64,000 nt of DNA from Pseudomonadota bacterium (GTDB lineage: Bacteria; Pseudomonadota; Gammaproteobacteria; Steroidobacterales; Steroidobacteraceae). Both the position numbers and the translations under genes were made by a program. Shown one piece after another: positions 24,812 through 56,634 of this stretch. Each line of letters begins with the position of its first letter. Positions within the stretch are counted from its first letter, which is position 1. The notes beneath the pieces are model-generated. The model had not been told where the DNA came from. It searched no databases and was given only the letters and a program-made list of their open reading frames with translations. The stretch spans positions 186,001 to 250,000 of the forward strand of contig JAKCDC010000001.1 of the NCBI GenBank assembly GCA_021838635.1, written 5' to 3'.

Positions 24812-26113
24812 ATGAAGATACCCGAGATTCTGATCGTCGAAACCGTTCATCAGCCAGGCAGCCTCGCCAAGGTGCTGCAGGTCATCGCCGATGCTGGGCT
24901 GACTATTCAGCATCTCTCGGCGGTGCGGCGTGTGCCGGGTCACACGCTCTGGGAAATCACCCTGGAGATGGACGAGCAGGCCAATAGCGATCTCTATGAG
25001 CGCATCGACCAGCTGCCCAATGCCCGCTTTATCGGCAAATCCGACCGCGTCTTCAATCGTCACCGTGGCGGCAAGATCCGCACCGTGGCGAGCCTCCCGA
25101 TCAACACACAGCAGACGCTGCGCGACGTGTATACCCCGGGGGTGGCGCGCGTGTGCTTGGCGATCCGGCAGAACCCGGCGCTCGCCCGCGAGTTCACCAG
25201 CATCGACAGCACGGTGGCGGTGATCACCAACGGCACGGCCATTCTCGGACTGGGCAACATCGGCCCGCTCGCCGGCTTGCCGGTGATGGAGGGCAAGGCG
25301 GCGCTGTTTGCCGACCTGGTGGGACTCTCGGCCGTGCCGATTCTGCTCGAGGAGACCCGGCCGGAGAAGATCGTCGAGCTGATCAGCGGGATTCATCTCT
25401 CCTTCGGCGCGATCCAGTTGGAGGACTTCGCCGCGCCGGAGTGCTTCCAGATCGAGTCGCAGCTGCGCGAGCGGCTGGGCAAGCCGGTGATGCATGACGA
25501 TCAGCACGGCACGGCGGTGGTGGCATTGGCCGCGCTCATCAACGCCGCCCGGCGTGCCGAGCGTAGTCTGCCGGAGAGCACGGTCGGCCAGATCGGCCTC
25601 GGCGCCGCTGGCACCGGCATCGTGCGGTTGCTGCGCGCCTACGGCGTCACTCGAGTGCTCGGTGCGGACCGCAATCCCGAGGCGATTGCGCGCATCCGCA
25701 CGCTCGGGGCCGAGGGGGCGAGTCTGGAGGAAATCATGCAGCGCGCGGACATCGTGGTGGCCACCACCGGCGTGAGGGATCTGATTCGTCCGCAGTGGAT
25801 TCGTCCCGGGCAGGTCATCCTGGCGCTGTCCAACCCGGACCCGGAGATCGAGCCGCACGTGGCGCGTGAACATGGCGCGGCGTTCGCAGCAGATGGCAAG
25901 GGCATCAACAACGTCCTGGCCTTCCCCGGTCTGTTCAAGGGCGCGCTGGCTGCCCACGCGACGCATTTCACCGATGCGATGCTCATGGCGGCGGCCCGGA
26001 CGCTGGCCGAGATCGCCCCACTCACCCAGGAGGACGCGTTGGTGCCCGACCCGCTCGACAAGAGCGTTCACGAGCGGGTGGCGGCAGCCGTCCAGGCGGC
26101 GTATCAGCCGTAA
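24812..26113 (+). CDS. NAD-dependent malic enzyme with N-terminal ACT domain
   Basis: A 433-residue malic enzyme that decarboxylates malate to pyruvate. Residues 1-75 form an ACT regulatory domain (PEILIVETVHQPGSLAKVLQVIADAGLTI). The catalytic part has DVYTPGVARVC with the conserved tyrosine, ITNGTAILGLGNIGPLAGLPVMEGKA, HDDQHGTAVV, a Rossmann loop GLGAAGTGI and ALSNPDPEI. The compact size is bacterial, with no phosphotransacetylase-like tail. The ACT domain suggests amino-acid control, as in Bacillus-type enzymes; the ligand is not predictable. It is convergent with rpoH, 20 nt apart. Confidence 0.93.
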   Translation: MKIPEILIVETVHQPGSLAKVLQVIADAGLTIQHLSAVRRVPGHTLWEITLEMDEQANSDLYERIDQLPNARFIGKSDRVFNRHRGGKIRTVASLPINTQQTLRDVYTPGVARVCLAIRQNPALAREFTSIDSTVAVITNGTAILGLGNIGPLAGLPVMEGKAALFADLVGLSAVPILLEETRPEKIVELISGIHLSFGAIQLEDFAAPECFQIESQLRERLGKPVMHDDQHGTAVVALAALINAARRAERSLPESTVGQIGLGAAGTGIVRLLRAYGVTRVLGADRNPEAIARIRTLGAEGASLEEIMQRADIVVATTGVRDLIRPQWIRPGQVILALSNPDPEIEPHVAREHGAAFAADGKGINNVLAFPGLFKGALAAHATHFTDAMLMAAARTLAEIAPLTQEDALVPDPLDKSVHERVAAAVQAAYQP

Positions 26114-26133: not shown

Positions 26134-27018
26134 TCAGGCCGGGACGGGTTCCGGCGTCATGATGCCGCGCAGCTTGCCTAGCGCATTGGCCTCGATCTGG
26201 CGGATGCGCTCGGCGGACACGCCGTACTGGCCGGCGAGTTCGTGCAACGTGGCCTTGTCCTCGCGCATCCAGCGCCGCTCGAGAATGTCGCGACTGCGCT
26301 CATCGAGCCGCTGGAGCGCACCGCGCAGGCGCAGCGCTGCGTCGTTCTCCCACTCGGCATCCTCGACCTGTTCGGCAGGGTCGGCGTCGGGGGCGGGCAG
26401 ATAGGCGGCCGGGCTGTAGGATTCCTCCTCATCTGCATCCGGTGCCGGATCAAATGCCATGTCGTGCGCCGCCAAGCGCTTTTCCATTTCCGTCACCTCC
26501 CCGGGCGTGACGCCCAGGTCGCGGGCGACGGCCGCCGTTTCCTCCGCGGACAGCCAGGTCAGGTTCTTCTTCATCCGCCGGAGGTTGAAGAAGAGCTTGC
26601 GCTGCGCCTTGGTGGTGGCGATTTTCACCAGCCGCCAGTTGCGCAGCACGTATTCGTGAATTTCCGCGCGGATCCAGTGCACGGCGAACGACACCAGGCG
26701 CACATTCAGCGCCGGATCAAAGCGCTTGACAGCCTTCATCAGTCCGACATTGCCTTCTTGGATGAGGTCCCCGAACGGCAGGCCGTAGCCGCGGTAGCCG
26801 CGCGCGATATGCACCACGAAGCGCAGGTGAGCGAGCACCAGCTTGCGGGCGGCATCGAGGTCGCCCTCGTCGCGGAAGCGCACGGCCAGCGCATGTTCCG
26901 CCTCGCGGTCGAGGACGGAGATGCGGCTGACCCGGTCAACGTAGGCATCGACACTGCCGACAGGGCCAACGAGCGCACATTCGTAGGGCCGCGCAACCAA
27001 TGCAGTCGCTGTACTCAT
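26134..27018 (-). CDS. rpoH: RNA polymerase heat-shock sigma factor (sigma-32)
   Basis: A 294-residue RpoH. Region 2 shows LVLAHLRFVVHIARGYRGYGLPFGDLIQEGNVGLMKAVKRFDP, followed by the RpoH box region (VLRNWRLVKIATTKAQRKLFFNLRRMKKN). Region 4 has the helix-turn-helix ATLHELAGQYGVSAERIRQIE. It directs transcription of heat-shock genes. The ATG at 27018 has GGAGCCTCC just upstream. A perfect CIRCE element lies 30 nt upstream of the start. Unlike many gammaproteobacteria, rpoH does not follow ftsX; it is about 2.9 kb from ftsY on the opposite strand. Confidence 0.96.
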   Translation of the reverse strand: MSTATALVARPYECALVGPVGSVDAYVDRVSRISVLDREAEHALAVRFRDEGDLDAARKLVLAHLRFVVHIARGYRGYGLPFGDLIQEGNVGLMKAVKRFDPALNVRLVSFAVHWIRAEIHEYVLRNWRLVKIATTKAQRKLFFNLRRMKKNLTWLSAEETAAVARDLGVTPGEVTEMEKRLAAHDMAFDPAPDADEEESYSPAAYLPAPDADPAEQVEDAEWENDAALRLRGALQRLDERSRDILERRWMREDKATLHELAGQYGVSAERIRQIEANALGKLRGIMTPEPVPA

Positions 27019-27047
27019 GGAGGCTCCGAGATCGATATGGGCCAATT

Positions 27048-27074
27048 TTAGCACTCGAGTCTTTTGAGTGCTAA
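27048..27074. promoter_or_regulatory. CIRCE operator (HrcA-binding site)
   Basis: TTAGCACTC (27048-27056), nine bases, then GAGTGCTAA (27066-27074): the canonical 9-N9-9 CIRCE inverted repeat without a mismatch. It lies in the rpoH leader, 30 nt before the ATG. The minus strand carries a TAAAAT, a possible -10, at the downstream edge of the element. Known function: HrcA represses chaperone genes from CIRCE. Its position suggests HrcA control of rpoH; the divergent b561 gene starts about 200 nt away on the other side. Confidence 0.93.
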
Positions 27075-27268
27075 TCACCCCTGAAGTTCGATCCGACGAG
27101 TATTTTTATGGCAAAGGTCTAGATTAAGAAGAATTTGCGCGGGCGGGCGGGGCCCAAAACATGTCAATAATGTCAATTTTCCGAGAACTTTAGAGTTCTG
27201 GCGGCTAAGCTGCCGGCCCTGCATTTTGCGAACGATTCACCTGCTACTGCTGCACGAAGGGGACCGAC

Positions 27269-27826
27269 TTGGCGACGACGGCGACGACGGCACATTCCGA
27301 AATGAAGTACGACGGACTCAGCATTCTGCTGCACTGGCTCACAGCCCTGCTCGTGATTACGCTCTGGGCGCTCGGTCAGTCGCTGAGCTTCTTCCCCAAG
27401 GGCGCGCCGCGCCTGACCGCGCTTTCGGTGCACATGGTGCTCGGACTGCTGATTGCCGCGGTCATTCTGGTGCGGATCGGTTGGCGCTCCTCGGCCGGAC
27501 GCCGACTGCCGGCGGCGGATGAGGGCTTCTTGAACCTGGTTGCAAAAGGGGTCCATTACGGCTTGTACCTGCTGCTTGTGCTCACGGTGGCCTTCGGCGT
27601 CGCGCGCGCGTGGGTGCACGGCCTGCACGTGTTCAACTGGTTCACCTTCCACCGGCCGGCCTTTGCCACCCCTGGGATCATCTACATCGTGAGCGAAACC
27701 CATAGCGATCTGGCGGACCTGCTGGTGATCGTGGCCGGCATGCATGCCGCCGCGGCGCTGATGCACCATTACGTGATGCGCGACTCCGTGCTGAAGCGCA
27801 TGCTGCCGCGCCGCGACGCCCAGTAG
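27269..27826 (+). CDS. Cytochrome b561 family protein
   Basis: A 185-residue four-helix membrane cytochrome. Haem-ligand histidines are visible in LLHWLTALL, SVHMVLGLL, VHYGLYLLL and MHAAAALMHHYV. The loop HVFNWFTFHRPAF is typical of the CybB group, which passes electrons from quinol, for example to superoxide or periplasmic acceptors. The TTG at 27269 follows AAGGGGA by about 6 nt; the ATG at 27302 (MKYDGLSILLHW) fits the family start but lacks a ribosome site. Confidence 0.88.
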   Translation: MATTATTAHSEMKYDGLSILLHWLTALLVITLWALGQSLSFFPKGAPRLTALSVHMVLGLLIAAVILVRIGWRSSAGRRLPAADEGFLNLVAKGVHYGLYLLLVLTVAFGVARAWVHGLHVFNWFTFHRPAFATPGIIYIVSETHSDLADLLVIVAGMHAAAALMHHYVMRDSVLKRMLPRRDAQ

Positions 27827-56488: not shown

Positions 56489-56587
56489 ATGGAATTTCCC
56501 CAGCCATCAGAAATTTACCGCTGCTGCTGTTGCCGCAGCTTGCCGTGCATCGCCTGGGAATGGAGCGGGTGATGGGAATCGAACCCA
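56489..56587. repeat. Attachment-site-like direct repeat with tRNA-Gly 3' end (right copy)
   Basis: 98 of 99 bases equal the copy at 51793-51891. The right 27 bp are part of the intact tRNA-Gly gene. Together the copies bracket about 4.7 kb. Confidence 0.85.
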
Positions 56588-56634
56588 CGTTAGCAGCTTG
56601 GGAAGCTGCAGTTCTACCATTGAACTACACCCGC
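56561..56634 (-). tRNA. tRNA-Gly (CCC)
   Basis: On the minus strand: acceptor GCGGGTG...CACCCGC with discriminator T and encoded CCA; D-arm GTTC/GAAC; anticodon stem GCAGC/GCTGC with loop TTCCCAA, so positions 34-36 read CCC; T-arm GTGGG TTCGATT CCCAT. All stems pair. Total 74 nt including CCA. Its 3' end is the integration target of the island to its left. Confidence 0.93.

Follow-up and report, generated by a model that had tools for sequence, protein, structure and literature searches.

A CIRCE element overlapping predicted sigma-E and sigma-70 promoters of rpoH in a gammaproteobacterium and its relatives

The amount of sigma-32, the product of rpoH, is a central knob of the heat-shock response. 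In Escherichia coli, this level is controlled mainly after transcription, and the rpoH promoter P3 is sigma-E-dependent. An enterobacterial relative, Lelliottia (L283), shows GGAACTT-N16-TCTGA ahead of rpoH, with the same -35 and 16-nt spacing as the locus described here; unlike that locus, it has no CIRCE (best match with 8 mismatches). E. coli itself, used as a control in the hrcA family search, gave no HrcA match. In Pseudomonas aeruginosa, transcription of rpoH P3 by sigma-E (AlgU) is given as established in the accessible text of PMC13104619. CIRCE before rpoH has been in print since 2004 for Geobacter sulfurreducens, as a computational prediction (PMC545781, Table 8, position -51). Judging from the portion of that paper available to us, G. 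sulfurreducens resembles our organism in having a perfect CIRCE close before rpoH and a CIRCE at groESL; it differs in being a deltaproteobacterium with CIRCE also at hrcA-grpE-dnaK-dnaJ, and no sigma-E promoter is named there for its rpoH CIRCE. The preliminary description of our locus took no position on whether the arrangement had been described in this lineage; by this precedent, CIRCE before rpoH is not new in itself.

Control of groESL by HrcA and CIRCE involves the same operator and regulator, and groESL carries a CIRCE-like site in the genome studied here. Unlike the rpoH sites, groESL sites rarely carry the promoter-like bases considered below. The available parts of PMC10696704, PMC4577112, PMC13104619, PMC11764788, PMC3224663, PMC10490939, PMC3989490, PMC8119881 and PMC3135505 do not report CIRCE before rpoH. 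In the open literature, as far as its text was accessible and with key papers lying outside it, we found no account of an rpoH promoter, whether of sigma-E or sigma-70 type, that is overlapped by CIRCE. A study by Permina and Gelfand from 2003, which reportedly covers beta-, gamma- and epsilon-proteobacteria, may list rpoH in HrcA regulons. That the gammaproteobacterial rpoH-CIRCE is undescribed so far can be proposed only weakly. All parts of the arrangement are of known kinds, and the sharing of one operator by two rpoH promoters is new as far as we could check.

The window, by which we mean the whole 64-kb stretch of DNA analyzed, holds a perfect CIRCE (TTAGCACTCGAGTCTTTTGAGTGCTAA, 0 mismatches) ahead of rpoH (Table 1). 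It is the only match in the window even when three mismatches are allowed, and none of 100 dinucleotide-preserving shuffles of the window contained a match at that threshold, which bears out the earlier claim of a perfect element at these positions. The rpoH ATG lies at 27018, preceded by GGAG at 27027-27024, and is 29 nt away from CIRCE. An alternative GTG start at 27078, found in the list of open reading frames, would place CIRCE within rpoH. Across rpoH loci, with start positions extrapolated by aligning each protein with that of the window, CIRCE lies anywhere from 6 to 173 nt ahead of rpoH; a coding role for CIRCE is therefore unlikely, and the GTG start was set aside.

Table 1. Features of the rpoH upstream region, in positions of the window
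Feature	Position	Strand	Remarks
rpoH, heat-shock sigma factor sigma-32, 294 aa	26134..27018	-	TIGR02392 398.8 bits (cut-off 323.1)
Predicted sigma-70 extended -10, TGCTAAAAT	27045..27053	-	right CIRCE arm plus conserved nnT
CIRCE, predicted HrcA operator	27048..27074	-	perfect TTAGCACTC-N9-GAGTGCTAA; found ahead of rpoH in 38/40 genomes, counting our own
Predicted sigma-E -10, TCAAA	27063..27067	-	last two bases of left CIRCE arm plus first three of spacer; 16 nt from -35
Weak sigma-70 -35-like TTAGCA (4 of 6)	27069..27074	-	18 nt from TAAAAT; end of CIRCE arm
Predicted sigma-E -35, GAACTT	27084..27089	-	register 14-16 nt before CIRCE, as in relatives

We also identified a putative sigma-E promoter that runs into CIRCE. 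The sigma-E consensus, which we take to be a GGAACTT-like -35 and a TCnnA-like -10 some 16 nt apart, is matched in the window by GAACTT-N16-TCAAA, with the -35 reading CGAACTT and thus missing the first G of GGAACTT. In relatives, the rpoH-CIRCE is repeatedly preceded, at a constant distance, by a GGAACTT-like block, and the spacer following TTAGCACTC tends to start with nnA. The genome has rpoE followed by rseA, and GAACTT-N16-TCTAT before rpoE matches the -35 and spacing seen at rpoH. Of four relatives inspected, three show GAACTT-N16 some 80-100 bases upstream of an early RpoE motif; in the fourth there is only a weaker match, lying at a greater distance. The predicted assignments to sigma factors depend on general consensus sequences, and the GAAC and TCnnA patterns are loose.

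The sigma-E elements were counted at sites fetched by CIRCE alone. All CIRCE sites found were taken from a set of 40 genomes (our own and 39 relatives), 25 of which belong to one genus, and 30 loci (L076-L105, one per genome) joined this CIRCE-selected set from the 106 class genomes with CIRCE. The counts leave out L003, L004, L191 and L192, which are not CIRCE neighborhoods of rpoH or groESL, as well as sites at neither rpoH nor groES, namely L038, L080 and L097 (before hrcA) and L048 (no heat-shock gene recognized). GAAC starts 14-16 nt before CIRCE at 43/51 rpoH sites versus 1/48 groESL sites, TCnnA is present at 42/51 versus 11/48, and both elements occur together, with AAC accepted for GAAC, at 41/51 versus 0/48. 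Five of the eight rpoH exceptions (L076, L083, L086, L096 and L102) have GAACTT-N16 or N17-TCnnA in another register; the remaining three (L014, L070 and L084) have no sigma-E motif in any register.

A predicted sigma-70 promoter may occupy the same bases. The extended -10 consensus, presumably TGnTAnnnT, is completed by a T that stands third after CIRCE in 51/51 rpoH sites versus 3/48 groESL sites, again fetched by CIRCE alone. The same T is found at 79/83 rpoH sites of a set chosen for the composite of GAAC and CIRCE, and at 33/34 sites (two mismatches at most) among loci chosen solely by their RpoH protein, these being the best 80 of 590. A promoter scan returned TTAGCA-N18-TAAAAT, with TG in front, exactly on CIRCE, a match that is weak when taken alone (1 found, 0.2 expected, sd 0.6); since TTAGCA is the CIRCE arm itself, its conservation is indistinguishable from that of CIRCE. 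Genomes without RpoE keep this T (G029, G036 and, at L084, G155), which fits an operator shared by two promoters. From these patterns, rpoH transcripts are predicted to start near 27056 (sigma-E) and 27038 (sigma-70), inside and downstream of CIRCE. The preliminary description had called CIRCE a leader element; the predicted promoters would make it core promoter DNA instead, probably untranscribed in large part or altogether.

If the GAAC motif is a sigma-E promoter, it might be expected to accompany RpoE. RpoE scored over the cut-off in 11/16 genomes, taking one genome per family in the order, and RseA was found in 30/40 genomes. Two genomes (G029 and G036) have no RpoE over the cut-off and no RseA match, and their rpoH-CIRCE lacks the -35. 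A prediction fixed beforehand, that the motif-less G155 would have no RpoE and that eleven others would, was correct in 12/12 class genomes, namely those for which CIRCE alone had served to retrieve the rpoH-CIRCE site. When the five sites with a shifted register are counted along with those in register, the sigma-E motif occurs in 22/22 CIRCE-rpoH genomes with RpoE over the cut-off versus 1/4 without (Fisher 0.0015, a value that overstates the significance because the genomes are related, 25/40 being of one genus; G033, with RpoE in fragments, was omitted). The exception is G031, an 82% complete genome with the motif and with neither RpoE over the cut-off nor RseA. In G035, which has rpoH without CIRCE, no GAAC-N16-TC motif was found within 400 bases upstream.

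These counts bear on a simpler scheme, in which HrcA alone controls rpoH through one sigma-70 promoter and the GAAC motif is no sigma-E promoter. The nnT after CIRCE is indeed more constant than the GAAC motif (51/51 against 43/51), and some rpoH-CIRCE sites lack the motif altogether (L014, L070 and L084, and seven sites of the named-organism set below). Against this, the motif holds its 16-17 nt spacing even where its register to CIRCE shifts, is almost absent at groESL-CIRCE, matches the element before the genome's own rpoE, and tracks RpoE, and we regard the single-promoter scheme as unlikely. A CIRCE that serves as the HrcA operator over the rpoH core promoters and gates both sigma-70 and sigma-E transcription is, by our estimate from these patterns, the probable arrangement.

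Alternatively, the palindrome might work at the RNA level, as a hairpin in the rpoH leader that senses temperature or affects stability, rather than as an operator on the DNA. A perfect 9-bp inverted repeat can fold, and the structure of the E. coli rpoH mRNA is thermoregulatory. However, transcription is predicted to begin within CIRCE or past it, unequal arms break a stem pair in 9/51 CIRCE-selected rpoH sites, and Rfam at gathering scores reports nothing at CIRCE. The sequence is moreover the HrcA consensus and goes with hrcA, and a hairpin function appears very unlikely.

Returning to the operator reading, the genome (3.47 Mb, 96.5% complete) has a single hrcA match, at 219.3 bits against a cut-off of 22.2, so that the regulator, whose presence the preliminary description had left to be checked, is there. 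With up to three mismatches, the genome contains three CIRCE-like sites: the perfect one at rpoH, one with two mismatches upstream of groESL (L002, G000:C3:43435-43461), and one with three mismatches (L003, contig C92). The last adjoins genes without a recognized heat-shock link, and we set L003 aside because, with three mismatches allowed, a reversed control pattern likewise matches once on each strand of this genome. The contig of hrcA carries none of the three sites, and dnaK was neither located in the genome nor recognized beside the third, weak site. In the cascade proposed earlier, in which chaperones respond together with rpoH, the chaperone partner visible here is groESL, with its CIRCE-like site. 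As a side observation, the groESL operator of this genus has one divergent half-site (TTAGCAGCC), seen in all 18/18 same-genus groESL sites taken, and within the genus the rpoH CIRCE is better kept than the groESL CIRCE in many of the same genomes. Some relatives also have, by coordinates, a CIRCE before hrcA itself (L038, L080 and L097), an arrangement of autoregulation.

The element is kept in close and distant relatives, a point on which the preliminary description had sought an answer. When two mismatches are allowed, CIRCE stands ahead of rpoH in 38/40 genomes and of groESL in 32/40, and hrcA is matched in 33/40. In one of the two exceptions, G023, no rpoH-CIRCE was found; the other, G035, has neither CIRCE nor matches over the cut-off to hrcA, RseA or RpoE. 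Six of the 40 genomes (G004, G009, G012, G013, G027 and G036), which are 63-100% complete and several of them incomplete, have CIRCE without an hrcA match. Among 185 class genomes, exact CIRCE and hrcA occur together in 100, CIRCE only in 6, hrcA only in 30, and neither in 49. Control of rpoH by HrcA is well supported in silico, because hrcA is present and the element is conserved.

Two further explanations are highly improbable. CIRCE is palindromic and lies between rpoH and a divergent cytochrome b561-like gene (27269-27826), which it might serve in place of rpoH, except that a relative of the cytochrome gene is near just 10/39 rpoH-CIRCE loci of the 40 genomes and the promoter-like conservation found runs in the rpoH direction. 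Likewise, the site might be a relic, or a palindrome arisen by chance, that does nothing today, as the 6/106 class genomes with exact CIRCE and no hrcA match might suggest, but this is scarcely credible for a sequence that is perfect, conserved across families and accompanied by hrcA.

Beyond these genomes, a composite pattern of GAAC-N10..12 followed by an exact CIRCE was found in 88/369 class genomes (own included) under 50 family labels, and the reversed pattern in none. Since the composite set (L106-L190) was chosen for the -35 and overlaps the CIRCE-selected set, it was not used to judge the -35. Composite sites stand ahead of rpoH in 86/88 cases (83/85 plus L001, L035 and L072). The other 2/88 are L154 at groES, where the -10 does not fit, and L160/L287 at clpB, where we recognize the downstream protein as what is presumably ClpB. 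Among 299 genomes of the phylum, there were four composite matches, all within the window's class. The locus at clpB (L287:1501-1542, or G111:C8:47854-47895) is an observation of its own, a sigma-E and CIRCE module before the ClpB gene, and the module may serve other heat-shock genes.

Additionally, we drew a set from named organisms by the RpoH protein, using 79 of the best 80 of 590 rpoH loci (L207 came without upstream DNA). CIRCE with up to two mismatches is present at 34 of these 79 loci from the best 80 of 590; among the 34, GAAC is in register at 26, the motif is farther upstream at one (L266), and none is present at seven (L227, L249, L250, L257, L278, L279 and L281). The in-register loci include MAGs and strains labeled Woeseiaceae, Haliea, Parahaliea, Alcanivorax, Dyella, Lysobacteraceae, Methylothermaceae, Sedimenticola and Sulfuritalea. 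A loose sigma-E motif occurs in 30/45 loci without CIRCE, again among the best 80 of 590, where mononucleotide shuffles of the 79 upstream stretches lead one to expect 2.5%; several Pseudomonas and enterobacterial relatives are among the 30.

The preliminary description envisaged a cascade in which HrcA sets sigma-32 synthesis. The cascade is plausible, hrcA being present and CIRCE conserved, and the scheme has to be widened, since CIRCE also covers the predicted sigma-E and extended -10 sigma-70 promoters. In unstressed cells, HrcA on its 27 bp would block both the sigma-70 promoter (right arm plus AAT) and the sigma-E promoter (GAACTT-N16-TCAAA), occupying both -10 regions and the sigma-E start. 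Heat or unfolded protein would inactivate HrcA, probably by way of occupied GroESL; in Caulobacter, GroESL keeps HrcA folded, according to the text of PMC8119881 available to us. With HrcA inactive, groESL and rpoH would be released together. Envelope stress would free sigma-E from RseA and add rpoH transcription from the second promoter, which would still be gated by HrcA. We infer that HrcA binds and represses at rpoH, where the transcripts start and how the promoters are gated, as well as which signals matter in the cell (heat, GroESL load and envelope stress). What we observe is the sequences themselves, how far they are conserved and the fact that they occur along with hrcA and rpoE.

A broader idea, to which we give slightly less than an even chance, is that compact rpoH control modules, some 45 bp long and with a single HrcA operator doubling as sigma-E -10 and sigma-70 extended -10, are widespread and perhaps ancestral in Gammaproteobacteria as GTDB defines them. 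If so, rpoH would be a gate for two compartments, the cytoplasm through HrcA and the envelope through sigma-E, and the CIRCE-less sigma-E-type rpoH promoters of enterobacterial, Vibrio and Pseudomonas relatives would be what remained after HrcA was lost. In many Gammaproteobacteria, the level of rpoH transcription would then be governed by a repressor responsive to how heavily the chaperonin is loaded, sitting on bases that sigma-E must read. The two classical heat-shock circuits, HrcA and sigma-32, would act one after the other instead of in parallel, with E. coli possibly showing a reduced version. Here and in many related families, where the predicted HrcA site lies exactly over what look like two rpoH promoters, a single short stretch of DNA could integrate information on damage to cytoplasmic proteins and on envelope stress.

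Several smaller observations concern individual loci. Two loci upstream of rpoH, L275 and L233, stand out: in Lysobacteraceae NML93-0793 both CIRCE arms are altered in concert, giving TTAGCAGTC-N9-GACTGCTAA, and Luteimonas is similar; such paired changes suggest that HrcA specificity may have shifted. Pseudoalteromonas luteoviolacea (L250) has a perfect CIRCE before rpoH with the sigma-E motif not in register. Two different CIRCE-rpoH loci (L021 and L052) occur in G013, a 75% complete MAG that may hold mixed strains. Within the window, a malic-enzyme-like protein is encoded at 24812-26113 (+); its N-terminus (residues 6-73) has a weak match to the terminal part of the PGDH model and may be a regulatory domain of ACT type. 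A tRNA gene at 56564-56634 (-) is the sole Rfam match in the window at gathering scores.
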